Positions 16,826 through 40,700 of a stretch of DNA of 64,000 nucleotides are shown here, in pieces. The DNA is from Chloroflexota bacterium. Lineage in GTDB: Bacteria; Chloroflexota; Anaerolineae; J036; Brachytrichaceae. Both the position numbers and the translations under genes were made by a program. Within the stretch, counting starts at the first letter, position 1. The number at the start of each line of letters is the position of its first letter. A model generated the notes under the pieces. The model did no database searches. It was not told where the DNA came from and was given only the letters and a program-made list of their open reading frames with translations. The stretch lies in the NCBI GenBank assembly GCA_025354985.1, contig JANXLU010000042.1, positions 62,001 through 126,000 of the forward strand, written 5' to 3'.

Positions 16826-19800
16826 GTGGCCGGCAAACAGGCACCCAAGCTGCCACGCTCGCGACTAGTGCGCAGTGTGATGGCAGGGTTGCGCCGCGGG
16901 CCGGTGCTGATTACGGCGCCGGCCGGATTTGGCAAGACCACGTTGCTGCAGGCGGTACTGCAGCAGCGCCCAAACACGTACTATTTGCGGCTCACGCCGA
17001 CCGATGTAGACCGAGCCCACCTGGCGGGACGCCTCGTTCCCCTATTGATCGATTCAGCAACCGTGTTGCTTGATGATGTGCACCACCTTCAGGACGCTGC
17101 AAATGCGCTTTCGTGGCTGAACCAACACATAAACAACCGCGCCAATCACTTTGTGCTATCGGGTCGGCGGGAGCCGGATCCGGCGTGGGGCACGCGATTT
17201 TTCCGCATCACGCACGAGCACCTGGCATTTAGCGCGGTCGAGGCGCGTGCGCTGTTAGGGCCCTCTCGGCAATTCACCGGCGCTGGGATCATGGCCTGGC
17301 ACGCGCGGACGAAGGGTTGGCCGATCGCGCTGGCTGTTTTGGTCAGACAGATTGGTGAGCCCGGTATGGCATTGCCGGACACAGTGTTGATCCCACCGAG
17401 TGATCATGTCGGAACTTCGCTGCTTGCCTATCTTGCCGAACGCCTGATTCGGACGCTTCCTGAACAGCTGTTTGAATTTATTCAAACGGTGGCTCATCCA
17501 ATGGAGTTTAATGACGAACTGGCAGCCGTGCTAACCGCGGGTTCGATCACGCTGGCAGCGCACCTGCGCGGCGAAGTTGAACAGCGGAGCCTATTTATTG
17601 AGCATGCCGAGGTGGACGGCTGGTTTCGATTTCATGATTATGTGCGCGACTATCTTATTGACCGACTGGCGCGGTCTTCGCCCGAGAGAAGCTGCGCGAC
17701 GCTGGCCCGTGCAGCCGACTGGTTTGAATCTCAAGGGGACCTGCCCGCGGCGGTAGATCACGCATTGCTGGCAGGGCAGCCGGAGCAAGCCAGCCGAATT
17801 TTGGCAGCCCTCGAAGAGCATTGGGTTTGGAGCGCCGGGCGATCACAAACCTATCGTCGCTGGGTGCTCAGCCTGCCGCGCACGGTTCTCGAACGCCACC
17901 CGCGGCACCTTGCCCAACTCAGCCGTGTACTGTTTGACGTTGACAAATATGACGAGGCACAGCAGCTTATGCGTGACGCGCTGCTTATCGTGAACGAAAG
18001 TACGGACGGTCAGGTGCGGGCCTGGGTCAAGGATGCTGCAGCGCTGCAGGCCGGCCGGGTAGGCCACAGCGATGAGGCCATGCGTCTGGCTACTGAGGCC
18101 CTGAACGAGCCCGACCTTGCGCCCACCACGCGGCAGAGCGCGCTCAACACACGCGCAAGCAACCTGGCACTGCAAGGACGGCTGCGGGCCGCCAAACCAG
18201 TGTTTGAACAAGCGCTGGCACTTGCACAAACGCTGGGGAATGCCACCAATATCTTCCGTGTGCAACACAACTTGTCATTGCTGGTCAACCAGCCGCTTGG
18301 CAACTTTGTGGAAGCGCGCCGTCTGCTTAAAGCCAACGATGCATTTTGTGCCGACAAGCCCGGCTGGCGCAATCGCCACCTGCTGGGCTGGGCGGGTCTT
18401 CACGAAGCGCTTGGGGAATGGTCTGAATTGGCGGATTGCGTGCGCCAGATGGAACTGACCAACATCGAGCTGGAAGAGCGCGGAGAGGACCGCATTTGGG
18501 AATACTGGTTTGGGGCCTTCGCGCTGGGTGGTGGCGGAGATTATGCCGCGGCCGAGGCGAAGCTTGACCACATGCATACCGCCGCTCATACTCAGGCGGA
18601 TGGACCGGCCAGCGAACAGTGGGCACGTGCCTGGCTCCTTCGCAAACGGGGTGATTTGGCGGGCTGCATCGCGCTTGCCGATCGCGAATTGCCGCTCCAT
18701 GGCGACGCACCTTACTATCAGTCGGCCATCGCATTTGAGCGGGCATGTGCGGCCCTCTCGCTGAACTCCGCCGAACCAAGCTGGATTGCGCCGGCCGCGC
18801 CGTATATTCGGATGCATCACCAGCTGCGCGCCCGGGCATACATGCTCCGCTGGCGGGCGATGCTGGCTGTGACCGGTCAGGCGTGCGGTCACCCGCGCTG
18901 GCGGGCACACGCGCGCGCGGCAATGCGTCTGTCAGCGGATGCGTCTTTGACCGAGATCTTGGTGCATCGCGAACCTGAACTGGGGGGACTTTTCCAGGCA
19001 ATGCTGATCGCAGGCGGGCTCGGCGGCCGGGAGGTGGAAGCGTCGCTGGCACGCACCGGTCACATCGCGGCGGCGCTGGCGTTACTGAACTCTAGTGATA
19101 GTCGGGTGATTACCCGCGCCGTAACCGCCATCCGCGCGATAGGTGATGAACGGGCAATTCCGGCACTCACAGCGGCGCTGGCGCGGCAGACGGATAGTCC
19201 TGCGCGGTCTTCGCTGGGGCGTGCGGTGCACGTGTTGCAGGAAGCCTCACCGCCAGTGATCACCGTGCAGCTTATGGGCGCGTTTTCGTTAAAACGCGGT
19301 GAAGCCGTCATTGATGACGCAGCCTGGCAGCGCCCATCGGCCCGTCTTCTTCTGCAATATTTGGCATTGCATGCGGGAAAATCGCTGGTGAGAGAAAAGG
19401 TCATTGATGACCTTTGGCCCAACGCCGGGCCAGCCGCCGGGCGCGACGCGTTTAAGACCGCACTTAGCCGTGTGCGCAAGGTTGTCGAGCCGTTTCTTTC
19501 AGCCAAAGCGCACATCCGCTATTGGTCCGCCGATGGTGACATGATCCACGTTCACCAGGACTATCTGCAAACCGACATGGCGGTGTTTGAAAGAGAGTGC
19601 CGAGCTGCACTTGTAAGCGCGGATCGTGGCGACAATCCCGAGCTGCACACGGTGCAACAAGCATTGCTGCAATGGGCCCCTTTGCTACCCGGTGCGCAGA
19701 ATGAGGCCTGGACCGTGCAACCACGCGAACGGCTGCACGATTTGTACGTGCGCGCATGTGCCATGGTTGGCCAAGCTTATCTTGAGACAAATTTGCTTCC

Positions 19801-20020
19801 GGAAGCCGCCCAATGGGCCGAACGCGCCATTGTGGTCGCGCCGTGGTCAGAGGAGTGTTATCAAACCCTTATGCGTGCGCAATCCCGACAGGGCAACCGT
19901 ACCGGTGCGTTACATACGCATGCTGTTTGTGTTAATGCGTTGGATCGTGAGCTTGGCGTGCACGTATCCGAGCTCACAGCCTGGCTCGGGTCTCGATTAC
20001 GCCGCGGCGAGCCGATCTAA
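16826..20020 (+). CDS. STAND ATPase/TPR/BTAD transcriptional regulator (SARP-MalT hybrid)
   Basis: A 1064-aa signal-integrating transcription regulator. Residues 1-310 form a MalT-like STAND ATPase with Walker A APAGFGKTT (31-39) and Walker B TVLLDDVHHL (about 77-86). Residues of about 310-720 are TPR-like helices. A HEAT/PBS-lyase-type stretch (ITRAVTAIRAIGDERAIPAL) lies near 770. From about residue 815 comes an OmpR-type winged helix (QLMGAFSLKRGEAVID, then SLVREKVIDDLWPN) followed by a bacterial transcriptional activation domain with TPR character. SARP-type proteins with this winged helix activate nearby genes, so the small and giant genes downstream are the obvious candidate targets (inference). 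The GTG start is supported by GATAAT six bases upstream. The 3' end lies 49 bases from the small gene. Confidence 0.9.
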   Translation: MAGKQAPKLPRSRLVRSVMAGLRRGPVLITAPAGFGKTTLLQAVLQQRPNTYYLRLTPTDVDRAHLAGRLVPLLIDSATVLLDDVHHLQDAANALSWLNQHINNRANHFVLSGRREPDPAWGTRFFRITHEHLAFSAVEARALLGPSRQFTGAGIMAWHARTKGWPIALAVLVRQIGEPGMALPDTVLIPPSDHVGTSLLAYLAERLIRTLPEQLFEFIQTVAHPMEFNDELAAVLTAGSITLAAHLRGEVEQRSLFIEHAEVDGWFRFHDYVRDYLIDRLARSSPERSCATLARAADWFESQGDLPAAVDHALLAGQPEQASRILAALEEHWVWSAGRSQTYRRWVLSLPRTVLERHPRHLAQLSRVLFDVDKYDEAQQLMRDALLIVNESTDGQVRAWVKDAAALQAGRVGHSDEAMRLATEALNEPDLAPTTRQSALNTRASNLALQGRLRAAKPVFEQALALAQTLGNATNIFRVQHNLSLLVNQPLGNFVEARRLLKANDAFCADKPGWRNRHLLGWAGLHEALGEWSELADCVRQMELTNIELEERGEDRIWEYWFGAFALGGGGDYAAAEAKLDHMHTAAHTQADGPASEQWARAWLLRKRGDLAGCIALADRELPLHGDAPYYQSAIAFERACAALSLNSAEPSWIAPAAPYIRMHHQLRARAYMLRWRAMLAVTGQACGHPRWRAHARAAMRLSADASLTEILVHREPELGGLFQAMLIAGGLGGREVEASLARTGHIAAALALLNSSDSRVITRAVTAIRAIGDERAIPALTAALARQTDSPARSSLGRAVHVLQEASPPVITVQLMGAFSLKRGEAVIDDAAWQRPSARLLLQYLALHAGKSLVREKVIDDLWPNAGPAAGRDAFKTALSRVRKVVEPFLSAKAHIRYWSADGDMIHVHQDYLQTDMAVFERECRAALVSADRGDNPELHTVQQALLQWAPLLPGAQNEAWTVQPRERLHDLYVRACAMVGQAYLETNLLPEAAQWAERAIVVAPWSEECYQTLMRAQSRQGNRTGALHTHAVCVNALDRELGVHVSELTAWLGSRLRRGEPI

Positions 20021-20057
20021 ACGGCGGACTGGTTACCGGGTGGTTACCGGGATGGTG

Positions 20058-20063
20058 TAATCT
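20058..20063 (+). promoter_or_regulatory. -10 element of a probable leaderless message for the small/giant pair
   Basis: TAATCT is followed by ATTGAA (six bases) and the ATG at 20070. This is the only recognisable signal in the 49-base gap after the regulator gene and is the best argument that the small gene begins here. Confidence 0.45.
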
Positions 20064-20069
20064 ATTGAA

Positions 20070-20291
20070 ATGAATCGCAAGCGGACACCATTGCACACAT
20101 TCGTGGTTCGCTGCCTTGTAACGGAGCCGAACCAGGTGCTGGGCGGCCAGGTAAGCGAACCGGCATCCCCGGATGAGTGGCAGGCCCGCTTTACAACCGC
20201 CGATGAGTGCTTGGCCCTGATCCTGGCACGAACCACCAGTTTGACCAGCATCCAACTTTCAAAATCCAATGAAGACCATAACGAACCTTAG
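20070..20291 (+). CDS. Small protein preceding the giant secreted protein
   Basis: A 73-aa soluble protein of unknown function. It begins MNRKRTPLHTFVVRCLVTEP and contains VLGGQVSEPASP and FTTADECLALILARTTS. The pattern (a FVVR strand, a GGQV strand, a short loop and a DECLALI helix) resembles a class of small proteins I associate with Chloroflexota, in which a strand-strand-helix unit ends in a leucine-rich helix; this is recollection, not a search. The gene starts six bases after a TAATCT element, and its last 23 bases overlap the start of the giant gene in another frame, so translation of the two may be coupled. It could alternatively be a leader peptide. Confidence 0.55.
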   Translation: MNRKRTPLHTFVVRCLVTEPNQVLGGQVSEPASPDEWQARFTTADECLALILARTTSLTSIQLSKSNEDHNEP

Positions 20292-23200
20292 GACGTGGAT
20301 AATTTTGGCCACGTGCGCCAGCCTTATGGCCTCATCTCAATCTGCCGCCGCAACGTATGGAAGCGCGAGCAAGCCCGTGACGTCACCCATCATGGCAAGC
20401 CGCTTCGCTGCCGACAGCCTGCCAAATCCCACGAACAATCCGGCGGTTCTGGGCACGCCGATCAGCATCTCGCGGGTGCAATCGGCCGCCACAGCAGGCA
20501 CGGCCAGTGGCACGCTGGTGGTTACTTACACGATTGCAAACAACCTGACGCCGTTGGTCGCTCCGCAGTTTAGCCCATCCGCCACCATCACCGCGACCCT
20601 GGCGCAATTTAGCGCGTTTAATTACGCGGATGACCCCAATACCCTTCGTGGGCTCCTGCTTGGCGACGCGCTTACCGCGAGCGCGGGGCTTGTCAGTGGA
20701 TCACCCGTGCCCGATAAAAGTGGTCTTAATCTGGCGTATAGCCTGCCCGACCTGCCGCCACTCAGTCGGGTGAGCGTGGTGCTCACTCTGAGCGTACCGG
20801 CATCCTCAGCGAGCGCGCTGTCACTTGACAGCGGCCTGATCGCCTGGGGCACACTCCGCGGACGGCTGGCCAAAGCCAGCGCGCCCGCACTCAGCCTGGC
20901 TCCTGACGCGCTCGCGGGCTGGCTGGGTCGCACGGTGGATGCCGACACGCAGGACAGCGTGATGCTGGATCAGCTGGGTGCACTGGACGGAACCCCGGCG
21001 GGTATTTTCGGCTTTGTCAGCGGTCTGGGCTTTGAGGCCTACAAGGGTGCGCTGCGTGGCACCCGCGGCACGCTCTGGAGCGGGGCGGGTAATTCATTGG
21101 ACAAGAGCAGCCTGTTGATTGCGATGTTACGGGCCAGCGCCATACCGGCCCGGTATCGCCATGGCGCGCTGGATGGCGCGCATCAATCGCAATTGGTTGC
21201 CAGCATGTTTTCCGCGCCCGGCGGCGCGCTGGGCCTGGTGCCCGCGGGTGACACACTTAGCGATCCGGCTCACGATCCGGCCCTGCTCGCTGCGGTCGCC
21301 GATCACTGGTGGGTGCAGGCCAACCTTGGCGGCACCTGGACCGATCTGGATCCGTCGTTTGCAAACGCTGCAGCTGGGCAGTACTTTGCCAGCAGCATCG
21401 CCACCGATGGCACGGATCTAATTCCCGAGGTTCCGGATATGTTTCGGCACAAGATTACGCTCCGGGTAAAGACCGAACGGGCGGATGGCGGCAGCCTGTT
21501 TGGAACGGGTTTTGCCTACGAGTTCCCGCTCTCGACCACACTGGTCGCCGAGTCGCTGGTGGGCGTGCCGGTATCGCTGCAGCACTTGGTGAAGGTCAGT
21601 GGCGGGGGCGGGTCTATTTTTAGCTCCCAGGCCATTGACTACGTGCCCTTTCTAATACTGGGCGACCGCGCTGATCTTCGATCCATCGATGGCCAGACGT
21701 TTCAAGATCAGACCAGCACCTTTGGTGGCGGGCTGGCCAACACGGTGCACACCGCGGAATGGCTGGAAATCGATCTGCGGGATGCAGATGGCAGCGTGCG
21801 CACGGTCTCGCGCGAAATCGCCGACCGGCTGGGCTATGCCGCGCGGCAATCGGGCACGGCTGCGGTCGGCGCGAGCGCGGGCACGCCACTGGTGAGTGAG
21901 AACCAAATTTTCCAGATCCTGGCCGCGCCTTCGCGCGTGCCGGCATCGGCGCGGAACCTGCAGATTGCCGCGCTGATGGCGGCCAACCAGAGCGTAGTGC
22001 AGGAGCTTGCCCGCGTGGATGCGCTGCAGCCCGCTGACGTGGCCGGGCGCGACCTTGCGGCACGCGAGGCAACGAAAGCGTATCGTGCGTGGGCCGGCAA
22101 CGTGCTGAGCTTGATCGACCTGACCCATTACATCGATTCGGATCAGGCGGCGGAGCAGCTGGGCGCCAGCATGTTGGTAAAGCCATTTGTGACCAGCCCG
22201 CGGATTATCATCGCCACAAGCGATGTGGGTGACACGGGCAACATCACGATGACGCTTGACCTGCTGGTGGATCACATAAGCGCATACGCATACCCCGCGC
22301 AGAGCCAGGCGGTTGAAGGTGCGTTTCAAGCCATGCGCGGATACGTTGAGTCTTCGATAGAGGGCACGGCGCTCTCCGAGGTCACGTCCAAGACCGCGCG
22401 CACGACGTACGCGGTGTTTGAGGCCCTTAAGAGCGCAGCTAATCCGGGCATCTTTATCGCCTACCCGGATGACATGACCGGGCTGGCTGCGGCGAATATT
22501 TCCGACCTGGCCAAGGCACGCATCGCAGCCGCGGTGGCCGCGGGCAAGATTGTGATCGCGCCCAATCAAATGGTGACCCTCGGTGGCGTTAGCACGATTG
22601 GATGGTGGGAGAAGGATCCGGCCACGGGTGAGGTGATTGGGGTGATGCAGGATGGTTTGCATCAGGCCATCATCGAGTACACGGCACTTTCGCAGTTAAA
22701 CAACCCGTCGTTCATATTTATCGGGTTCTGGCACGGTTTTACTCAGGCCTGCTTTGCCATTGCGTCCGGGGTGCTTTCGAAAGTGGCTGAGGGCAAGCCG
22801 TTTACCGTGAAGGATGTGATTCGACCACTTCTGTATACGGCAATGATCGAGGCGGAACTGGCGCTCGCCTCGGTTGGTTCCAGCATCTTGAAGGGAGCAG
22901 CACGGGAGATTATTGACAAGCTGATCAGCAGCACCGAGGAATGCTTTAAGGGCGACTGCCCCACTGACGAGAAATTACTGACGTGGGCGTTCGACAAGCT
23001 CATAGCCGCGGTGAAGAAGGCGGTTGTGGCCGGCGAAGAGCCGCCTTTCGAGATCAACTTCGACAGCTATAAGGTGTCCACGCAGGTCGGCAAATTTGCC
23101 GCGTATCTGTTTTTTGCTCGGGCTTCGGATCCTGCTATTCCGCCAGAGCAGCTGATTGGTCTCAGGGTGCAAGTTGACCCCGCGCGCGCCATCGCCGTCA

Positions 23201-26200
23201 CGCAAGTGCCAGCCACTGCAGCAGGGGCGAACATCTCGGCATCGCTGCAAGTTGCGCACGCATACGCGGGCAGCCCGGGAAGCGTGGGGCTATATGCGGC
23301 GGTGCCGAGCGGGCTGGGCGTGGGCGGGGCATGGCCGGGCGCGCCGTTTGCCAACTTTGGCGCGAGTGGCTCGGTGGCGGTTTCGGGTGCGAATCTGATC
23401 CTTGGCCCGGGCAGCGGCACACTCACGGTCGGCGGTGCACCATTCACGGCGGCCGGTGGGGTGGCGATGGGAAACGCGACGGGCACGCTACAGGTCAGCG
23501 CGGCGGGTGTAATTACGGAGAAAGTCAACTTCCTTGGCAGCGCACAGGTATTTGCCCTGAGCGTGACACCGATGAGCTCCACGATCACGCCATTGCAAAG
23601 TGCTACATTTGGCGCGCAGCTCGCGGCCAATTTCAGTGGCGACTACACGATGACTGTCGAAGGCGCACCGGGCTGGCGGGTGGCGCTGGATGCCGGGCGG
23701 CACATCACGGCCACTCCGCCGCTTGGCGCGACACCCGGTGACTATACGATTGCCGTCACTGCTCAGTCGGTGGCGCTGCCGCGTCTGCAGCTGACCGTGG
23801 TGCACACGGTCACGCTGGTTTCAGTCGACGGCGCGCAACTGACGGTGCTGCCCGATCCGCTGACCACGGTGCCTTGGGGACCGGGAACGGTGAGCGGCCA
23901 ATTGCAATTGACGCAAGCGGCGTATCGTGTGGTTATCACCAACACGGGTAACCTGGATGCGCGGTACGACGTGACTGTGTGGAATCTGCCGGTCGGTTGG
24001 AGCATACTCAACAACAGTATTGGCGCAACCACAACCGTGGCATTGCGCGCAGGCGCAACCACCCAGCTGGGCTTATATGTCTCCCCGACCCTGGCGGCAT
24101 TGCCACCCGTGGGCAGCGCGTTTCCGTTTTCGCTGACGGCGGTCAAATCCGGCAATGCAGCCGTCCAGGCGAGCGCCATTGAAACGTTTGTGGTGCCCGG
24201 GCTGGCTTTTGCCGCGTTGACGGTTGCGCCCGACCCGGCCTATGGCAGTCTCGGGTTCTCCACCACGCTTGCCACCCAGCTGAGCAATGCGGGCAATGTG
24301 ACAGCGACGTTTGCCGAATCGATCACGTTGAGCGATGCCGACTGGTCAGCGGCTGCGCTGCCGCCAGTGTCGCTGGCGCCGGGACAGGCGATCACGCGAT
24401 CAATCGTTATCAGCACGGCGAGTGGCGCTGTTGGAACCAAACACCCGCTGCAAATCATGGCAGGTGCGGGCGGCCAGACCGCCACCACCTATGTAAGCGT
24501 GCACATGCTTGGTCCAACCGGCGCGTGCAGCGTGCGCTTCGCGGCTGGGTTGGAAGACGGGAGCGACCAGCTCCTTGGTGCAGCGGCCAGCAATATGGCA
24601 AACGCCATCAGCGCGCTCGAAGCCGCGCCGGGAGACCTGGCCCTGCGCACAGCCGCCGTCATGGCCATCCGGTCGTTGGTGGTCCGGGCCGCGCCGCTGC
24701 TGCCTGCAGGCGGCGTCGCCGGGCTTACCTCGATGGCCGATGGCCTCGCCAGCGACACCAACGCCGCGCAGGTGACCACGCGGCTGGGCGGTTTGTGCGC
24801 GGTCGAAACCGATCTGGCCATCGCGTTGGCGCAATCCGCCCGGCACCGATGGCAGGCGCAGTTTACGCCAGCCACTGCGGTGTCCTTGCCAGGGCGACCG
24901 GTGACCTACACGTTTGACATACTGAACCGCGGATCCGAGACCAGCACATATACCGTGACGTTGGGTTCAGCACTGCTGGCAGGGCCGGTGGCAACGCATC
25001 CCACACTGGCCGTGGGCGCGCACACTTCCACATCTGTTTCGCTGGTAACCACCACGCTTGGCTTGTTCCCGCTGTTTGCCGTCGTCGTGTCGGATGTTCC
25101 AATCACAGAAGGCATTGGTGCGCAAGAACACATCCCGGCCGCATTACTGGTCGTTGACCGACTGGCTCAGGTGGTCGACGTTTCCGCCACGCCCGGCTTT
25201 GTGGAGACCGGGAGCAACATCACCCAGCTCTCCGCCCGTATCGCCAACGTGGCCAACGTTGCAGTCAGCGGTCTGGCCACCACGCAGGTGTTTTCACCGG
25301 ATGGCTCGGCGCTCGTTACCACGACTGCGCCACTCAACCTGACGTCCGCGCCCGCTCCGCAGTCGGTGGACCTGGGACCGTTCTCAACCGCCGGCCTGGC
25401 GGTGGGTGTTTACACGATTTCGTTCGGGTTGGCCATTAGCACGCCGACCAATCTGGCTGGTAGCGCGCCCATCACCGGCTTTGGCACGCTCGCAGTCGGC
25501 CAGGGGCTGATTGTGCGTGAGACTGTCTCGCCAACCATGGTGCCGCCCGGCAATAGTGTGATTACGGATGTAATCAGCACCGAGCGGGTAAACATTGGTG
25601 CAGGGGCGGCCGGCGAAACAGGAACCCCGCTGGCCGTTTATTCGCTCACGATCAGCTCGGTGACCAACGCCAGCACCAGCGACCCAACCGTGGGCGTTTC
25701 GCTTACCCTCGACGCGGGCACCTATGACGCCGTGCTGGATGATGGCGCGTATCGTATCGGCCCGGTCGGCACTATAAACGGTCTGTGGCGCAGCGGATTT
25801 AATGCCAGCGTCTATGTGACTACCACGTTGGCGCGCGCCTACCCGATAGCCCAAGGCACGGACTTTGTGAATGGCGGGTCGGCCACCGTGGAAGAGGCCC
25901 GCGCGCTTAACCAAAGCGCCAGCGCGCGCATCTACCTGCCCGCGCCTGCCACGGTGTATTTCTGGATTCCTGACGGATACGGCGGAGACAACGCCGGCGC
26001 GCTGGCGGTAAGCGTGCGCAAGATGGTCACCTCCAGCACCGCGCTAAACCGCCAGGTGGAGGGTGCGCTGGCGGCGGCGCTACCGGCGCAGGAGGCGGAT
26101 ACACTGGCCTTCAACAACTGGTCGCAGAGCAACAGCTGCATGGCCTGCCACATCCAAACGCAGAGCATGATCGGGCATGATGCCGCGCATAGCAAGGTGC

Positions 26201-29200
26201 CGCACAGCCTGGGTGATGCGCGGGTGATCGATGCCGTTCGCAGTTTGATCCTGGGCTCGGTGGACAACAACGGTGTGATGGGCAATGGCAGCGCAGGACG
26301 CGAGGTGGCCGCCACTGGATTTGCACTGTGGGCGCTGGCGCGCGACAGCGACCGAGCTGCGGCGGCCGCGCCGGCGGAGTTGCGCCCGCCCGGCATCCGC
26401 CGCTATGAAGAAAGCCACCCCGCGCTGCGCTTTAACAATCTGCCTTTTAACGGGGGCATCACCTGGGCCCGCTATTCAGACGCCAGCGACAGCGGCGGCT
26501 ACCTGGCCACCAGCCGCACGGCGGGTGACTCGGTCAGCCTGACGTTTGACGGTCGGGCTGCCTGGGTTGGCTTTATTGGGCAGACAAACACCGGGCTGGC
26601 CCGGGTCTTTGTCGATGGCGTGGTGGTCGAGACTTTGGACACGTACCGCACCACCCGGACCGACTTTCAGCGTTACTATGGCGGGCTGGTCACCGGCACG
26701 CACACCATCAGTGTGAGTGTGCTTGGCACGCATACGGTTAATGCCAGCGAGAACTACGTGGTGCTGGATTATTTCGATGTGTGGGATGGCAGCGACCTGG
26801 CACCCGGGCGCTTTGAGGAGGATGATCCACTGCGCGTGGCGCACACCGAAGATTGGGGGCAATCCAATAACCCCCCAGCCATCGGCGGAAAATATTTTGG
26901 CGACGGCAGCAACATCTGGTTCTTCTTCGGCGGCGACTCGGCGACAATTCAAACGCTGGCCGGTGGCACGGGTCAGATGGAGGTGATCGTAGATGGGCAA
27001 TCGCAGTCGCTGGTGAACGTGTCAAGCTACACCTATTTCACGCGAACTTTTTCGTTTGCCGGGTTTGGCCCGGGCGGTCACGTGATGCAGGTGCGCGCAT
27101 TCAGGGGCAATGCCGTGGTGGATGCCTTTATCGCGCCGGGCACTGCACCTTTCATCACTTCGCCGCCAACCGCCGGAATCACACGGCGTGAAGAGGTCGA
27201 TAGCAGTTGGACCTACAACGGCGCGGCCTTTGTCAGCAGGTCCGTGACATGGGCGCTTATTGGTAACAACCACGCCAGCGGCGGTGCGGCGGCCAGCACC
27301 ACGACCATGAGCGACACCGCCAGCACCGTGTTTAGCGGCACGTGGGCCAACCTCGGTCTCGTTACGGGCGCGGATTGTGGCCTTGTGCAGGTCGCGTTGG
27401 ACGGGGTGGATCAGGGCACGTTGGATACCTACAGCCGGTATGAGGGCACACTGACGCGAAACTGGCCTGCCCTATCCGCGGGCGCGCATACGCTCACCCT
27501 TACGGCGCTGGGCGCGAACAATGGCACCTCGTTTGGGGTGCGTGTGACCCCGGATTATCTGGATGTGTGGGATGGCAGTACGCTTCCTGCGGGCGAATTT
27601 GGCGAGGGCGACCCGCTGCAATATGCCTGGCAGAACCCACGGGTGATTTACAGCAACAATTGGGCGACGAGCACGCTGCCCGCCGCGGCCACCAATGGCA
27701 CGAATGCATATAACGGCACGAGTGCATGGTTCTCGTTCTCCGGTGACTCGGTCACGTTTCGTTCGGTCGGCGACACCAATACCGGCCTGGCCGAGGTGCT
27801 GGTGGACGGGCGTCACCTGGCCACGGTGGATAACTTCGTGGCTTCGGCTGCGGTCACTCGCACGTGGTCGTTTAACGGGCTGGATGCCGGGCCGCACATG
27901 TTGCAGGTGCAACAGCTGCATGGCGGGCTGAGCGTGGATGGATTTGCCGCGCCTGGGGTGGCGCCGTTTTATGCGCAGCCGACCGGGACGGGGATCGTGC
28001 GGCATGAGGAAAGCGACTCGCTTTGGCGCTATAGCGGCACAGCCTACCCGCGTGTTTCGATGAACTGGAGCAACCTCTTTCACAGTCAGCTTAGCGGGGG
28101 CTGGGATTGGGAATCCGCCACAACCGGCGCCACCGCCACGCTCACATTTAGCGGCACTTGGCTGATGCTGGGCTTGAATAGCTGCAATTCTTGCGGCAAC
28201 GCCGCAATTGCGATCGATGGCGTGCTACAAGGTGTTATTGATACGTATACATCCACTGAGACCGCGCTCAGCCGGATGTATTCCGGTCTGAGCCCCGTGA
28301 CCCACACCCTGACCATCACCGTGCTGGGCACCAGCAACGCAAGCTCCAATGGAAGTATGGTCATGGTTGACTACGCCGACACATGGGATGGGGCCGGCAT
28401 GCCAACAGGCGTATATCAGGAGGCTGACGCGCGTATTAACCATACCACCAACTGGATCGCGGCGCCGGATGTGGTGGCCAGCGGGGGTTCCTTCTACTCC
28501 AACGGAAGCAACGCATGGTTCCCGTTTACCGGCGGCTCGGCCACGATACAGGCCTATGGCAATACGTGGACCGGGGTCGAGGATGTGTTGCTGGATGGCG
28601 TCTTCCAAGGCACGTTAACCACCACGGCTGCCGGCGCTGTCACCCAAACGTATAGCCTGACCGGTCTGCCAACCGGGCCGCACGTGATGCAGATACATGC
28701 GCGCGCGGGCAGCGCCACTTTGGATGCGTTTGTCACACCGGCGGGCGGCGCGGGTCTTGCACCCATCGTGCACGGCGCCGGGCTTGCGCTTGCGCGTGCC
28801 GAGCCGCCCGTGGCGGACGCTCTGCTTGCTCCAAGCGACCAAACGGCCGCGACGGTCGGTCAGAAATCCAATATCAGCACAGCGCTGATCGCGGCTGCGC
28901 ACACCACCGGTCCGACGTATCCAGCGGGCTACGCCGGGCCGGGGCCAGCGCTTAGCGCGTCGGCAACGGTGGTCACTCAGGGCGTGGGGCTTACAGCCAC
29001 TATGGTCCGCATGGCCGACTATCTGGTCAGCCAGCAGCTGCCCAGCGGGATGTGGGTTGCAAACACCGGCGGATTCACCGAGAACCTATGGTGGTTGACG
29101 GACTTCAACGGTGTGGGCTCGCACCCGGCCAGCACGGCCTACAACATCATGGGGCTGCGCCGCGTGTATGAGATGACCGGCGACACGGTCTACCGAGACG

Positions 29201-31641
29201 TGATCACGCGGGCCGCCAGCGCGCTGGTCACCCTGCCCTATACCCAAAATCATTCGGTGGTGCTGCATGAGTTGATTGGGTTGGCCTTTGCCCAGCCGTT
29301 GATCCTGAGCCCGACGCTGACAGCTCAGACCGCCGCGCGCGCGGCCGAGCTAGCGGCGTATTTGCGCGCAAACCAAAACCCGGATGGCGGGTGGGGTCGG
29401 GGCGAGGGCGGCGTGATCACGCCCTCCGACCCGTTGCCCACCGCGGGGGTGTTGTATGCACTGTCACTGTTGCAACCCAACAGCGTGGATCCGGCGTTGA
29501 CCGCTGCGGCCAGATACCTGATCGCGCAACAGCGCGTGGATGGTCAATGGTCTTCAATATTTTCCACCAACAACGCCAGGCCGATCCTAACCACCTCGTG
29601 GGTGGATATTGCGCTACCGTATATTTATGATGTGCTCAGCAGCTACAGCGTGAGCGTCACACATTGGGTGCCGATCAGCGGAGTGACCGTAATCGATGCT
29701 TCGGTAAACCCGTCCGCCAGCGTTTCCAGCAGCAGCGGTGAGGCCACCTATGGCTGGGCATATAACCAGGCGCCCAACGTGCCACTACAAACCCTGTCCC
29801 ATGCCGCCAACCTTACCGGGATGCGCCCGGGTGAAACGCGCCAGGTGACCAACGGCACGGTGGTCAGCTACCTGATCGAGAGCGGGAGCAACGTGGTACG
29901 GCTGGCCCCGCGCTTCGTCACAGCCGGGCATTTGGTCGCGGTAGCACCAGGTGAACGTACCAGTGCACCGGGTGAGGTTGTGACGTTTACGGTCACCCTC
30001 GCAAACCCTTCGAGCGCGGGCGATGTCTACACGCTCTCGCTATCCGGACTGTCGGATCAGGTGGTGTCGGGCTTGCCGCTGACCATGGTCATCCCGGCCG
30101 CGGGCTCGGCCGCGCTGGTGGTGTCGGTCACGCTGCCCGCCACTGCCCGCATCGGTGATGCGCCGTTTATCGTGCAAGCCATCAACCGCGGTGGTGGTGC
30201 GGATCAGGCCGGGGCGGTGATTCATGTGATCGATCCATTCGACATTGCCGTGCTGCCCGCACGGCGGATCGCCAGCGCGGGCGGTCAGGTGACATATACC
30301 ATGGTCATCACCAACAACGAGCTGGTGACGCGATCGTATGCGCTGTCCAGCACCGGTCTGGCCGGGGATGTGCTCGATATGCCACAGGTCATCACGGTCA
30401 ACCCCGCCGAGCGCGCGAGTGTGCTCTTTACGGTCACAGCGCTGAACACCACGCCTATCCAGCTTTTCCGCATACTAACAGCCGAGCCGGTAAGCGGGCT
30501 CACCCGCGGCGCAGACGCCGCCCTGGACGTAATCGGTCGGCAAGGTGTGACGGCCGCGATATCCCCAGCGTCCGTCACAACCGCGCCGCAGATGGCGATC
30601 CGGCTCTCTGCAGTGATCACCAACACCGGTGATCTTTCAGATACCTACGATCTGAGTCTGCAGCTCCCCGCGGGTTGGAGCAGCGCGATCCAGGCCAATG
30701 GTGTGGGCATAACTGCTCTTCAACTTCCAGCCATGGCGCTCAACACAATGCGCTTGTACCTGGTAATCACCCCGGCGCTGGCCAGCGCCGGCGGCACCGG
30801 TGCGGTGTCTCTAACCGCACAGTCTCGCACGAACGCGGGCGTGAGCGCAGTTGTCACGGCAAGCGTGATCGTCCGCGCGCCCGGCTTGGCGCTGAGGATC
30901 GCGCCACAAAGCGCGCACGCCGCGCCGACTGTGACGAGCACCTGGCAAGTGTTGGTGACCAACACCGGGTCGGTTGTGGGAACGTTTGTGCTCACGCCCA
31001 GCGGCTTTGGCGCGGCCAACGCCACACTATCACCCGCATCACCCGCGATTGTGACGCTTGGCCCGGGGCAAGCCACCCAGGTGGTTATGACAATTGGGGC
31101 GTCACCCTTTGCCCTACCCGGCCCGCACTCGTTTGGGGTGATTGGCGCGCTGCAAAGCAGCCCGGACATATTGGCACAAGATAGCGCTACACTGATCATC
31201 GATGGTGCGCGGGCCATTCAAACCAGCATCGGCCCGGCACTGGTAAACCTGACCTCCACACTGGGTGTGGGCACCTATATGCTGTTGATCACCAATACGG
31301 GCGACCTGGCTGATGACTATCTTGTCACGCCCGGACTCGCGCGGAGTGACGGCGCCCTCACGGTGATCGCGGAGACCAACCATGTGTTTATCCCAGCGCA
31401 CTTCAGCGGCGCAGTGTTGTTTACCGCACAATCCATTCTGCCGGGAGATTTTGCCGTGGTCGCACAGGTCTCATCCATGCGCGGGGTTGCCAGCAGTTCG
31501 AGCCAGGCGGTGCTGCGCATTGCGGGAGCGCTGCCAACCGCCACACCGACGGCTACGGCAACGCCATCACCAACGCAGACACCGACGGCTACGCCTGGTC
31601 ATCGGCAATTTGTGGTGGACCTGCCGCTGGTGCAGCGCTAA
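20269..31641 (+). CDS. Giant secreted multidomain protein with transglutaminase-like, CxxCH alpha-toroid, triple-repeat and Ig-like modules
   Basis: A 3790-aa exported protein. Residues 1-28 are a signal peptide. A transglutaminase-like domain spans about 215-365 (GNSLDKSSLLIAMLRASAIP, then HWWVQANL and WTDLDPSF), with Ser276 where the catalytic Cys is expected. About 365-1000 is a mixed region I cannot name. About nine Ig-like/NEW3 modules carry ITNTGNLDARYDV-type motifs, four between about 1170 and 1720 and five between about 3210 and 3720. An alpha/alpha-toroid (squalene-cyclase fold) begins near 1930 with NSCMACH (Cys1957, Cys1960, His1961), is interrupted by three repeats of about 260 residues (2042-2830), and resumes at about 2912-3125 with NPDGGWG and VDGQWS. 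The C-terminus is a TPTATPT linker plus VVDLPLVQR. Function unknown; surface adhesion or polymer binding is one inference. Confidence 0.88.
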   Translation: MKTITNLRTWIILATCASLMASSQSAAATYGSASKPVTSPIMASRFAADSLPNPTNNPAVLGTPISISRVQSAATAGTASGTLVVTYTIANNLTPLVAPQFSPSATITATLAQFSAFNYADDPNTLRGLLLGDALTASAGLVSGSPVPDKSGLNLAYSLPDLPPLSRVSVVLTLSVPASSASALSLDSGLIAWGTLRGRLAKASAPALSLAPDALAGWLGRTVDADTQDSVMLDQLGALDGTPAGIFGFVSGLGFEAYKGALRGTRGTLWSGAGNSLDKSSLLIAMLRASAIPARYRHGALDGAHQSQLVASMFSAPGGALGLVPAGDTLSDPAHDPALLAAVADHWWVQANLGGTWTDLDPSFANAAAGQYFASSIATDGTDLIPEVPDMFRHKITLRVKTERADGGSLFGTGFAYEFPLSTTLVAESLVGVPVSLQHLVKVSGGGGSIFSSQAIDYVPFLILGDRADLRSIDGQTFQDQTSTFGGGLANTVHTAEWLEIDLRDADGSVRTVSREIADRLGYAARQSGTAAVGASAGTPLVSENQIFQILAAPSRVPASARNLQIAALMAANQSVVQELARVDALQPADVAGRDLAAREATKAYRAWAGNVLSLIDLTHYIDSDQAAEQLGASMLVKPFVTSPRIIIATSDVGDTGNITMTLDLLVDHISAYAYPAQSQAVEGAFQAMRGYVESSIEGTALSEVTSKTARTTYAVFEALKSAANPGIFIAYPDDMTGLAAANISDLAKARIAAAVAAGKIVIAPNQMVTLGGVSTIGWWEKDPATGEVIGVMQDGLHQAIIEYTALSQLNNPSFIFIGFWHGFTQACFAIASGVLSKVAEGKPFTVKDVIRPLLYTAMIEAELALASVGSSILKGAAREIIDKLISSTEECFKGDCPTDEKLLTWAFDKLIAAVKKAVVAGEEPPFEINFDSYKVSTQVGKFAAYLFFARASDPAIPPEQLIGLRVQVDPARAIAVTQVPATAAGANISASLQVAHAYAGSPGSVGLYAAVPSGLGVGGAWPGAPFANFGASGSVAVSGANLILGPGSGTLTVGGAPFTAAGGVAMGNATGTLQVSAAGVITEKVNFLGSAQVFALSVTPMSSTITPLQSATFGAQLAANFSGDYTMTVEGAPGWRVALDAGRHITATPPLGATPGDYTIAVTAQSVALPRLQLTVVHTVTLVSVDGAQLTVLPDPLTTVPWGPGTVSGQLQLTQAAYRVVITNTGNLDARYDVTVWNLPVGWSILNNSIGATTTVALRAGATTQLGLYVSPTLAALPPVGSAFPFSLTAVKSGNAAVQASAIETFVVPGLAFAALTVAPDPAYGSLGFSTTLATQLSNAGNVTATFAESITLSDADWSAAALPPVSLAPGQAITRSIVISTASGAVGTKHPLQIMAGAGGQTATTYVSVHMLGPTGACSVRFAAGLEDGSDQLLGAAASNMANAISALEAAPGDLALRTAAVMAIRSLVVRAAPLLPAGGVAGLTSMADGLASDTNAAQVTTRLGGLCAVETDLAIALAQSARHRWQAQFTPATAVSLPGRPVTYTFDILNRGSETSTYTVTLGSALLAGPVATHPTLAVGAHTSTSVSLVTTTLGLFPLFAVVVSDVPITEGIGAQEHIPAALLVVDRLAQVVDVSATPGFVETGSNITQLSARIANVANVAVSGLATTQVFSPDGSALVTTTAPLNLTSAPAPQSVDLGPFSTAGLAVGVYTISFGLAISTPTNLAGSAPITGFGTLAVGQGLIVRETVSPTMVPPGNSVITDVISTERVNIGAGAAGETGTPLAVYSLTISSVTNASTSDPTVGVSLTLDAGTYDAVLDDGAYRIGPVGTINGLWRSGFNASVYVTTTLARAYPIAQGTDFVNGGSATVEEARALNQSASARIYLPAPATVYFWIPDGYGGDNAGALAVSVRKMVTSSTALNRQVEGALAAALPAQEADTLAFNNWSQSNSCMACHIQTQSMIGHDAAHSKVPHSLGDARVIDAVRSLILGSVDNNGVMGNGSAGREVAATGFALWALARDSDRAAAAAPAELRPPGIRRYEESHPALRFNNLPFNGGITWARYSDASDSGGYLATSRTAGDSVSLTFDGRAAWVGFIGQTNTGLARVFVDGVVVETLDTYRTTRTDFQRYYGGLVTGTHTISVSVLGTHTVNASENYVVLDYFDVWDGSDLAPGRFEEDDPLRVAHTEDWGQSNNPPAIGGKYFGDGSNIWFFFGGDSATIQTLAGGTGQMEVIVDGQSQSLVNVSSYTYFTRTFSFAGFGPGGHVMQVRAFRGNAVVDAFIAPGTAPFITSPPTAGITRREEVDSSWTYNGAAFVSRSVTWALIGNNHASGGAAASTTTMSDTASTVFSGTWANLGLVTGADCGLVQVALDGVDQGTLDTYSRYEGTLTRNWPALSAGAHTLTLTALGANNGTSFGVRVTPDYLDVWDGSTLPAGEFGEGDPLQYAWQNPRVIYSNNWATSTLPAAATNGTNAYNGTSAWFSFSGDSVTFRSVGDTNTGLAEVLVDGRHLATVDNFVASAAVTRTWSFNGLDAGPHMLQVQQLHGGLSVDGFAAPGVAPFYAQPTGTGIVRHEESDSLWRYSGTAYPRVSMNWSNLFHSQLSGGWDWESATTGATATLTFSGTWLMLGLNSCNSCGNAAIAIDGVLQGVIDTYTSTETALSRMYSGLSPVTHTLTITVLGTSNASSNGSMVMVDYADTWDGAGMPTGVYQEADARINHTTNWIAAPDVVASGGSFYSNGSNAWFPFTGGSATIQAYGNTWTGVEDVLLDGVFQGTLTTTAAGAVTQTYSLTGLPTGPHVMQIHARAGSATLDAFVTPAGGAGLAPIVHGAGLALARAEPPVADALLAPSDQTAATVGQKSNISTALIAAAHTTGPTYPAGYAGPGPALSASATVVTQGVGLTATMVRMADYLVSQQLPSGMWVANTGGFTENLWWLTDFNGVGSHPASTAYNIMGLRRVYEMTGDTVYRDVITRAASALVTLPYTQNHSVVLHELIGLAFAQPLILSPTLTAQTAARAAELAAYLRANQNPDGGWGRGEGGVITPSDPLPTAGVLYALSLLQPNSVDPALTAAARYLIAQQRVDGQWSSIFSTNNARPILTTSWVDIALPYIYDVLSSYSVSVTHWVPISGVTVIDASVNPSASVSSSSGEATYGWAYNQAPNVPLQTLSHAANLTGMRPGETRQVTNGTVVSYLIESGSNVVRLAPRFVTAGHLVAVAPGERTSAPGEVVTFTVTLANPSSAGDVYTLSLSGLSDQVVSGLPLTMVIPAAGSAALVVSVTLPATARIGDAPFIVQAINRGGGADQAGAVIHVIDPFDIAVLPARRIASAGGQVTYTMVITNNELVTRSYALSSTGLAGDVLDMPQVITVNPAERASVLFTVTALNTTPIQLFRILTAEPVSGLTRGADAALDVIGRQGVTAAISPASVTTAPQMAIRLSAVITNTGDLSDTYDLSLQLPAGWSSAIQANGVGITALQLPAMALNTMRLYLVITPALASAGGTGAVSLTAQSRTNAGVSAVVTASVIVRAPGLALRIAPQSAHAAPTVTSTWQVLVTNTGSVVGTFVLTPSGFGAANATLSPASPAIVTLGPGQATQVVMTIGASPFALPGPHSFGVIGALQSSPDILAQDSATLIIDGARAIQTSIGPALVNLTSTLGVGTYMLLITNTGDLADDYLVTPGLARSDGALTVIAETNHVFIPAHFSGAVLFTAQSILPGDFAVVAQVSSMRGVASSSSQAVLRIAGALPTATPTATATPSPTQTPTATPGHRQFVVDLPLVQR
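26392..27174 (+). repeat. Large in-frame repeat 1 of 3 in the giant gene
   Basis: Encodes residues 2042-2302 (261 aa), starting GIRRYEES. Each unit has two beta-sandwich-like halves. The first ends with a LDYFDVWDGS strip; the second has DGSNIWFFFGGDSATIQ and ends VDAFIAPGTAPF. Internal phrases such as VDGVVVETLDTY and TGTHTISVSVLG recur in all three units. Confidence 0.8.
27175..27990 (+). repeat. Large in-frame repeat 2 of 3 in the giant gene
   Basis: Encodes residues 2303-2574 (272 aa), starting GITRREEV. Landmarks match repeat 1: LDGVDQGTLDTY, AGAHTLTLTALG, DYLDVWDGST, then GTSAWFSFSGDSVTF and VDGFAAPGVAPF. A 17-base stretch around the DVWDG codons (gatgtgtgggatggcag) is identical to repeat 1, which indicates duplication at the DNA level. 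Confidence 0.8.
27991..28762 (+). repeat. Large in-frame repeat 3 of 3 in the giant gene
   Basis: Encodes about residues 2575-2831, starting GIVRHEES. Landmarks match: IDGVLQGVIDTY, VTHTLTITVLG, DYADTWDGAG, then GSNAWFPFTGGSATIQ and LDAFVTPAGG. The extra segment NSCNSCGN has two cysteines not found in the other copies. The 3' limit is approximate because the toroid sequence resumes gradually. Confidence 0.75.
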
Positions 31642-31645
31642 CGAA

Positions 31646-31773
31646 AATCAGCCGGGCACGTTCAGTGATCAGCGCTTCGGGCCCCGAACTCACGGGGGTC
31701 CGAGCGCTGATTGCGGTGAAACGCGACGTCGGCGGTTTCCTGCCCGTTCGTTTGCCCATGGGCCGGGCTGATT
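31646..31773. terminator. Nested inverted repeats between convergent genes, probable two-way terminator
   Basis: Between the stop of the giant gene and the stop of uxuA, an inner stem pairs ATCAGCGCT plus flanking GC bases (from 31668) with AGCGCTGAT (to 31711), with a bulge and a mismatch next to the loop. An outer stem pairs AATCAGCC (31646-31653) with GGCTGATT (31766-31773), partly overlapping the uxuA stop. The arrangement is symmetrical and fits transcription ending from both sides. There is no long T run. Confidence 0.55.
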
Positions 31774-37787: not shown

Positions 37788-40700
37788 TTAGTTCCCGCAC
37801 GGTGCGATATTGCGCCAGTTCGACGCCGTGTCGGCAACAGTTTGCACCCCGTTGACGCCGTAGACCAAGGTAAGCTGGCGGTTGGCAACCTCACCGCAGG
37901 TGGCGTCTTTCTCCACGAAGTCCCAGGAACCCAGTGCATATTTGTATTCGATTTGGGTGCCTTCCGTGCCGGTCAGCGTGATCGTCCACGTATTGGGTGC
38001 GGTCTGGCTGAGCACGACGCCGCCCGGGTTCCACTGCGGCAGACCACCATCCAAACGATCCAGGAAGCCGGCAATGTAGACCGAGCGTCCGGCTGTGGGG
38101 GCCGCGGTCACATTGAAGGTCAACGTGACTGTGCGAAGCTCAGCGGTCGCCCTCAGTTCGTTGGAATTGCCCGACCGGTTAAAGCTAAGGTCCAGTGAAC
38201 GGACAACGTAGTAATAGGTCGCGCCCTGAGTAATTGCGAGGTCAAGGTAGGTTGGCACAGTGGTCTGTCCAACTTTTACGTAGGGCCCGCCCGATGAGTC
38301 GCCACGGAGTACTTCGTATCCGTAGAGTGAGGCATCAGTGACGGCGTCCCATGCCAGCTGAATGCCCGCGGGTGACGCGGCGGTTACGACCAAGTTTGTC
38401 GGGGAAGCAGGCGCAGTTGTGTCACCGCTTGAGGCCACGGAAAGTTTGCCTGGGTTTGAGGGCAAGGCCCCGGCCGCCACAGGGCCGGAAAAGTCGGCAA
38501 CCAGCCAGTCGCGGCCATTGGTTGTACTGTAGCGATACACGTAGTCGTAGGAGCCAACGGCTTCAGGCAGCAGACTGGCTTTGTACTCATCGTTGTTGCC
38601 GGCATCTGCGTTGAACGTGGCGTCCCCCCAGACCCAACCAGCGGCGCCAGCCGGATTGGTTCCGACCGGGCCAAAACCAATCCGGGCAAGCAAACCCGGC
38701 GTTGGACCGGGAACATTGGTGAGACCGTCAATCCAAATTTGGCCATAGACATTCGGCGTGCGGTTTACGGCGCTGATGGTGTGATTGATGGAGGGCGGCC
38801 ACTGTGTATTTGCCCAGCCAATGGTCGGGTGCGGCAGCCCGGCCGTTTCGTTTGAAGCCGTGCCTTCGTTGCCGGCGCCATCGCGGGCCTTTATGACATA
38901 GTAGACCGTGTGACCGCCCGTGAGGCCGCTGTCAACAAACGCGGTTGTCGTGCTGCTACCGACCTTGACATATCCACCACCGCTGACCACGCTGCGATAG
39001 ATGACATAGCCACTCGCGCCAGACACTGCGTTCCAGCTCAGGCTTATGCTGGTGCGCCCTTCGGCGGTGACCGCGAGCCCTGTTGGCGCGGATGGACCGG
39101 TGAGATCGGCCCCGCTGACCGTCAGAATGGTCGCCGAGCGCGGCGCAATGGTGACGGTGAATGAGCCCGAGGCCACGGCCGATGCGGTTGCCGCGCCGAC
39201 GGTGTAACCTTTCTTGGGCAAAACACCATCCGGTAAAAAGCCGGTGACCTGAATGGCGGTGGTCGTGGTGGTCGTGCTGCGGTTGATGACGACCACTGCG
39301 GCTGCGTCGCCGCTCTTGCGGCCATACGCAACGAGGCCGGTCGCATCGTCGGCAGTGAGCATGCGCAGGTCACCATTGACCAAAGCTGGCGTGCTTGCGC
39401 GCAGGGCGGCGAGTGTGCTGTAATGTGACTTCAGGCTGTTATCTTGAACGCCGCCAGTCTGCGGCCAAGGGAAGGTGCGGCGGTCATCCGGGTCATCGCC
39501 GCCAGTCATGCCCACTTCGTCCCCGTAATACACCGTGGGGGCGCCTGGCAGGGTGAACTGAATCAGGGACGCAAGCTGGACGGAGCGCTTACCCGTTGCA
39601 AGATTGGCGGCGTTAAATTCTTTCTCAGCGCGATTTGCTGCTCCGGGGGTCAGCGTCCAAAGAATGCGCTCGGTATCGTGGCTATCCAGCAGGTTCATCA
39701 GGCTGTAGTAAGCCGCGTCAGGATAGTCTTCGCGGATCGAACTAATACGGCTCGCGAACTCGCTCGGCGCAAGAATACGGCCGCTGTCGCCAAAACCCTT
39801 GGAGTCAAACGACCCCGGGGTGAGCAACCCGATTACCGCGTCGCGCAGGCGATAGTTCATGGTGCTGTCGGCCAGGTTGCCACGCAAGAAACGCAACAGG
39901 GTGCTGTCTTTTTGCCAGAGCTCACTGATGATGAGCGCGTTTGGATCCTGGGTTTTCACCACGTTTCGGAAAGACTCCCAATAGCCTGAGGGAAAGGATG
40001 CATCGCCCATCACATCCAGCCGCCAGCCGGCAGCGCCGCGTTTTAGCCACAATTTTGAAATACTATTCGGGTCATTGACAAAGTAGGATTGAACCGCGGG
40101 GTTGGCCTTGTTTAGCACGGGGATGCTGTCAAACCCGAACCAGCCGTTATAGTAAGTATCCGCGCCGCCAGCCGTTGTGGGTGCGCAGGGTGACGGTTCC
40201 AAACCGGCCGGGGCACGAAAGCCAAACCAGTTGCGATAGACCGACGAGCTGGCCTCGCACGCGCCCACTGTGGCGAAGTGCCGGTAGCGGTCAAAGAAGG
40301 CGCTATCGCTGGACATGTGATTAAACACGCCATCCAGGATGATGCGAATCCCGCGTCCGCGGGCCTCCTTAACCAGTTCGCGAAAGTCCTCGTTGTTACC
40401 CAGGGCCGGGTCGATGTTTGTGTAGTCGGCGGTGTCGTAGCGATGGTTGGATTTGGCGGCGAAGATCGGGTTGAAATAGATGGTGTTTACGCCAATCGAT
40501 TGCAGGTATTCAAGGCTCTCTTTGACGCCTTCAAGGTCACCGCCAAAGTAATCCCGGCCACGCGGAGATTCCTTGGTTGGGCTGGAGGCGGGCGGATTTG
40601 CGTCATACCGCCATGGACAGTTGGTGGCGCCATCGGTGTAATTTCGGCAATAGCCTTCGGGCAGGCTGTTCCAAGGGAGCGCGACGACGGGATCGTCATA

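Follow-up and report, generated by a model that had tools for sequence, protein, structure and literature searches.

A BTAD regulator and a small-protein family as a candidate two-part control unit beside exported-protein genes in Chloroflexota

Activation of transcription by BTAD regulators is established for the SARP family. The SARP/AfsR-type regulators of Actinobacteria join a BTAD domain to P-loop and TPR parts and are cluster-situated near their presumed targets, and MalT/LAL regulators combine a P-loop and TPR N-terminal part with a LuxR-type HTH at the C terminus. BTAD has also been reported among the shell domains of contractile injection (eCIS) loci (Geller et al. 2021, PMC8213781). 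In a Chloroflexota locus we found a regulator with the elements of the SARP/AfsR type but in inverted order, with the sensor first and the BTAD domain last, and with an undescribed small protein as companion. Its N-terminal part is like that of MalT/LAL regulators, whereas a BTAD module with a putative winged helix replaces the LuxR-type HTH. At other loci of the phylum, a short BTAD gene together with a small gene precedes sheath, Pvc16, and AAA genes; the passages of PMC8213781 consulted name no small protein accompanying the BTAD genes.

The locus and its regulator

The regulator, a 73-aa protein, and a giant exported protein are encoded on one strand of the window, which is the whole stretch of 64,000 nucleotides that was analyzed and comes from a genome of 98 contigs and 4.19 Mb (Table 1). 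A gap of 49 nt separates the first two genes, and the second overlaps the start of the giant gene by 23 nt; an earlier sequence-only reading of this DNA had likewise noted the 49-base spacing and the overlap. That reading had also described the block as bounded by unrelated genes, and they are indeed an amidase gene with a short ORF on the 5' side, both on the same strand, and a convergent UxuA-like gene on the opposite strand on the 3' side. The two-way terminator that it had placed there was sustained only in part. The 131-nt region after the giant gene folds at -70 kcal/mol (z -4.6) and contains a very stable stem-loop, but no U-tract was found on either side of it. The stem-loop therefore differs from canonical intrinsic terminators, and its role as a two-way terminator is no more than plausible. 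Scans for Rfam families and tRNAs found nothing, and a promoter scan gave no more sites than shuffled sequences. Elsewhere in the window, at positions 37788 to 41984 on the minus strand, there is a long reading frame of 1,398 aa.

Table 1. Features of the locus, with positions in the window
Feature	Position	Strand	Basis
MalT-like STAND/TPR regulator with C-terminal winged-helix-like and BTAD parts, 1,064 aa	16826..20020	+	Pfam/NCBIfam, relatives
Small protein of 73 aa from an undescribed family associated with BTAD	20070..20291	+	Leave-one-out profile, AF2
Exported multidomain protein, 3,790 aa	20269..31641	+	Pfam/NCBIfam, comparison with relatives
Transglutaminase-fold module, giant residues 201-845, with well-modelled following part	20869..22803	+	AF2, 3isr match
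CxxCH motif, giant residues 1957-1961, start of toroid module	26137..26151	+	Sequence motif
Three tandem jelly-roll-like (CE2_N-type) repeats, giant residues 2064-2845	26458..28803	+	Self comparison, CE2_N E 4e-17
Squalene-cyclase-like alpha-toroid part, giant residues 3006-3096	29284..29556	+	Pfam/NCBIfam, QW-type repeats
C-terminal LPLVQR after Pro/Thr-rich linker	31621..31638	+	Sequence, motif comparison
Very stable stem-loop, flanked by the giant gene and the convergent UxuA-like gene	31665..31714 (about)	none	Fold energy

Pfam results showed a BTAD domain at residues 916 to 1054 of the regulator (E = 5e-15; 56.7 bits against a cutoff of 22.1) and matches to TPR and P-loop families, in agreement with the STAND/TPR/HEAT/BTAD architecture read from the sequence; HEAT_2 stayed just below its cutoff. 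The NCBIfam MalT model NF003420 covers residues 78 to 470 (E = 3e-28), with a score far below the equivalog cutoff. The P-loop carries the Walker A motif APAGFGKTT and the Walker B motif VLLDD at 80, and the middle of the protein is TPR rich, as expected of a MalT/LAL regulator. Before the BTAD domain, Trans_reg_C matches residues 839 to 890 with 17.9 bits, below its cutoff of 26.2, and no GerE match for a LuxR-type HTH was found at the C terminus in Pfam at an E value of 0.1. The BTAD domain takes the place where that HTH would be, and we do not class the regulator as MalT; its domains make it a sensor of MalT-like type whose C-terminal effector is BTAD.

Relatives of the regulator were found in 21 of 199 genomes of the class, its own included, and are 31 to 43% identical and mostly full length. 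The nearest orthologues adjoin other genes, and their downstream genes differ. A small ORF lies 3' of the orthologue at L046, L048, and L050, followed at L046 and L050 by an exported-protein gene; at L047 and L059, exported proteins are encoded directly downstream of the orthologue.

The small-protein family and its BTAD neighbors

Used alone as a query against 60 relatives, the 73-aa protein gave only weak, chance-like matches, some within long reading frames and none adjoining a regulator, so a profile made from regulator-adjacent ORFs was needed. With a four-row profile, small ORFs were found in 46 of 298 genomes of the class at an E value of 0.01, and with the 26-row profile that followed, the family was found in 85 of 400 Chloroflexota genomes. 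The small ORF of the window is not a chance frame, because a profile of the family from which it was left out nevertheless recovers it among the 539 ORFs of the window (E = 6e-10; next best, 0.011). The consensus of the family is FvlRiWxdexgxlrGqvxdpxsgxrrxFxsleeLlxfL. When 26 members were compared with Pfam and NCBIfam, no covering family was found, and the stray matches had E values of 0.008 or worse. A plasmid tblastn search with one small protein gave no match. No description of the family or of a small BTAD companion in Chloroflexota was found in the open literature, which mostly leaves out subscription journals. At two further loci, L119 and L178, tandem-repeat-like frames (ALSPRQLAPFRQKCVSGASWAGGAG and LLRPYDARGIGPMPAAARVTRAGAAAGGG) lie just 5' of the small-family genes.

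AF2 with 14 natural sequences predicted a beta-beta-beta-alpha fold for the small protein (pLDDT 77). No confident structural relative of the model was found (best Foldseek E value, 0.75; best VIA Z score, 5.7), and Foldseek gave nothing below an E value of 0.001 for it or for the model of giant residues 201 to 845. Release-factor domains, the MMO inhibitory subunit (6d7k, 2.0 Å over 55 residues), and HicB antitoxins appeared with Z scores of 4 to 6; these similarities may reflect a common arrangement only and were given no weight.

We examined 89 small genes, 82 of which are not cut by contig ends. A BTAD gene lies within 700 nt in 54 of these 82 intact loci, upstream on the same strand in 29, divergent in 11, convergent in 12, and downstream on the same strand in 2; about one third of the small genes lack a close BTAD neighbor. 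The first 30 loci may be biased, since the profile was made from BTAD-adjacent members. A second batch, picked by the score of the broader profile only, had a BTAD gene nearby in 38 of 56 loci. In seven whole genomes, six of them chosen for holding the small family, a choice that does not by itself favor adjacency, a BTAD gene is no more than 4.5 kb away from 22 of the 29 small genes, where 0.68 would be expected, and 22 of the 53 BTAD genes have a small gene at such a distance. The source genome has just five BTAD genes, and two of its three small genes are near one. Its two further small-family genes are G000:C57:5824-5976 (L174) and G000:C62:15091-15243 (L175); one is divergent from the gene for a 1,450-aa BTAD protein, and the other has no BTAD gene nearby.

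The partner regulators fall into three architectures, N-terminal BTAD (32), C-terminal BTAD (20), and short (13). A few of the regulators counted are separated from the small gene by more than 700 nt, and the class borders are approximate, since the profile reaches into TPR parts as well. The short ones are wHTH-BTAD proteins of about 300 to 370 aa without a STAND part. As all three architectures have a small partner, the element common to them is the effector module. Sequence distances of small and BTAD proteins are correlated (Mantel r 0.61, 52 pairs, 0 of 2,000 permutations), a figure confounded by species phylogeny. The pair recurs beside varying downstream genes, which makes the regulator and the small protein the conserved unit and the giant one cargo of it. 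Comparison of these sequences suggests that the two form a widespread, uncharacterized two-part control unit across Chloroflexota.

What follows the pair bears on whether the small protein serves the regulator or the downstream gene. By a crude hydrophobicity rule, the same-strand gene within 600 nt downstream encodes a signal-peptide-like protein in 32 of 51 loci; among other genes the proportion is 82 of 360 (p = 4e-8). Together with the small gene overlapping (13 of 51 loci) or abutting the downstream start in many loci, this enrichment would also fit a translational-coupling leader or an export or assembly helper for the cargo, and the linkage of small gene and cargo on one strand is equally what a partner of the cargo would show. 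We nevertheless consider such a cargo-serving role rather unlikely. The cargo ranges from exported proteins to cytosolic components of contractile injection clusters (sheath, Pvc16, and AAA proteins), 12 loci have the small gene convergent to the BTAD gene with no same-strand cargo after it, and the commonest constant neighbor is the BTAD gene. Because that neighbor persists while cargo and orientation vary, and because the small gene also accompanies short regulators that lack a STAND part, we favor an action of the small protein on the regulator.

A short BTAD regulator gene and a small gene also head contractile injection clusters, where they are followed by a sheath gene (L169 and L181) or a gene for a similar protein (L195), by Pvc16_N (L188), or by WHD-AAA ATPases (L158, L166, and L204).

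The giant exported protein and its homologues

The sequence-only reading had given the giant a transglutaminase-like fold, Ig-like modules, a CxxCH alpha-toroid, and three large repeats, all of which were found. Pfam and NCBIfam showed Transglut_core at residues 267 to 362, a FixG_C Ig domain, and the CE2_N-type modules. The model of residues 201 to 845 is confident (pLDDT 89), and its first part has the transglutaminase fold (Z 12.8 to 3isr and 9.5 to TglA). S276 aligns with the nucleophile Cys of 3isr (AGVC). In all 49 sequences compared, this position is Ser, Ala, or Gly, so that the Cys of the Cys-His-Asp triad of active transglutaminases and cysteine proteases is absent from every one, while His346 and Asp361 are invariant. 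Loss of the nucleophile throughout with retention of the fold suggests that the module binds rather than catalyzes. Protein 4.2 is a catalytically inactive transglutaminase and matches the giant in fold (Z 8.5); here, in contrast, the dead module is bacterial and sits in an exported giant protein.

The CxxCH motif, CMACH at residue 1957, has the form of a c-type heme attachment site. Between it and the remainder of the toroid are the three repeats of about 265 aa (2064 to 2330, 2326 to 2601, and 2598 to 2845), which are 37 to 39% identical. As the distance from CxxCH to the C-terminal part of the toroid is about 300 residues in proteobacterial forms and about 1,000 in the giant of the window, the repeats appear to be inserted into the toroid module. 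This module has two QW-type repeats and squalene-cyclase-type matches below the curated cutoffs, and the DxDD motif of squalene/hopene cyclases is absent from the giant. A CxxCHxQ[ST]Q-type motif occurs in the window giant and in all four other toroid-bearing giants compared (L222, L277, L281, and L295). The giants in which no toroid was detected, those with FG-GAP propellers included, lack it, except L220, whose sequence ends before the toroid. This distribution suggests a heme- or metal-binding toroid (residues 1957 to 3096). It is improbable that the giant is an extracellular redox protein with a heme-binding toroid as its redox or gas sensor, as there is a single motif with no second ligand identified, and the giant matches no cytochrome family in Pfam or NCBIfam.

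At its end, the giant has DLPLVQR, a variant of [YF]LP[LIV][LIV]x[RK], with which exported proteins of these genomes often end, as at L226, L230, L249, L261, L265, and other loci. In a loose form, the C-terminal pattern was found in 28 of 270 signal-peptide-like proteins and 8 of 717 others, and the strict pattern had 3 interior occurrences in 282,422 residues. It is possibly a C-terminal sorting signal not described before; no description was found in the open literature, subscription journals being mostly outside that coverage. This ending also bears on another reading of the giant, as a polymorphic-type contact toxin with the transglutaminase-like part as processing module. The giant presumably resembles such toxins in being large and exported and in having a conserved segment, GWWEKDPATGE-like, behind that part, but we hold this reading to be highly improbable. 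Polymorphic toxins have a C-terminal toxin domain and an immunity gene; the giant has no Pfam toxin domain and ends in the Pro/Thr-rich linker and LPLVQR, and no small same-strand gene follows, the next gene being the UxuA-like one.

A search of 99 relatives turned up the N-terminal module of the giant in 9, and relatives of this part up to 43 to 45% identical show that the giant ORF is not a chance frame. In the GTDB collection, 79 loci have the module, mostly in Chloroflexota but also in Planctomycetota, Proteobacteria, Acidobacteria, and an ANME-2 archaeon. The earlier view that the giant combines domain types seldom joined is not quite accurate, since the order of transglutaminase-like, Ig, jelly-roll, toroid or FG-GAP, and Ig modules recurs in many relatives.

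Upstream sequence was available for about 69 giant loci, and a small gene, a BTAD gene, or both lie within 700 nt in 11 of them and within 10 kb in 16. The small gene is directly 5' of the giant homologue with a close, divergent BTAD regulator of another architecture at L246, L247, L257, L264, and L289; at L251, L261, L265, and L275 it lies there with no BTAD gene next to it. L237 and L244 have a BTAD gene and no detected small gene, and at L241, L243, L260, L271, and L278 one or both genes are farther off. Neither gene was seen near the giant loci outside Chloroflexota. The pair turns up repeatedly at giants, in most cases with a regulator of another class, but the association is not a general one. 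The three genes had been read as a discrete system, with the proviso that giant homologues mostly lacking the partners would speak against it, and this is what most of them do; a fixed trio is not supported, and what stands is a regulator and small-protein unit that recurs beside exported-protein genes.

The main rivals of a regulatory unit are the cargo-serving role discussed above and coincidence, in which the pair controls other genes and has come to lie before the giant by accident in this genome. The bare giant homologues fit coincidence, as do the nearest regulator orthologues, which face other genes. We think it scarcely probable, given that the pair recurs independently with a different regulator class at the giant homologues counted above and that the genes here are so tightly arranged on one strand.

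A proposed mode of control

We regard it as evenly balanced whether the block represents a control unit of two genes, those of a BTAD regulator and a small protein of about 70 aa, placed before an exported-protein gene. In such a unit, a signal would be perceived through the TPR/STAND part of the regulator, and a nucleotide-driven rearrangement would expose its winged-helix/BTAD effector. The exposed effector would then activate the transcript of the small and giant genes, as we infer from the gene order and from BTAD regulators elsewhere. The small protein, with its predicted beta-beta-beta-alpha fold, would be produced from the same transcript as the giant and would probably bind and tune the effector module common to all partner regulators; action on the BTAD module is what the varied partners point to. 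Our guess for the sign of this effect is feedback inhibition, which is favored over activation because the small protein would be made together with the cargo. Export of the giant would rely on its signal peptide. Once displayed on the surface, the protein would use its dead transglutaminase, Ig, jelly-roll, and toroid modules as binding and spacer domains and not as a cross-linking enzyme. That the small proteins are dedicated co-regulators throughout the phylum, binding the winged-helix/BTAD part, and that the unit controls surface giants and contractile injection systems alike, seems to us conceivable, at somewhat less than an even chance.

The giants make up an exported family with a dead transglutaminase in several phyla, in which toroid and propeller modules are interchangeable. 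If the small protein is a subunit of the regulator, it would offer a way to study how BTAD/STAND activators are kept inactive or turned on, and a small gene beside a BTAD gene would be a simple marker of the exported and injection-system cargo of uncultured Chloroflexota.
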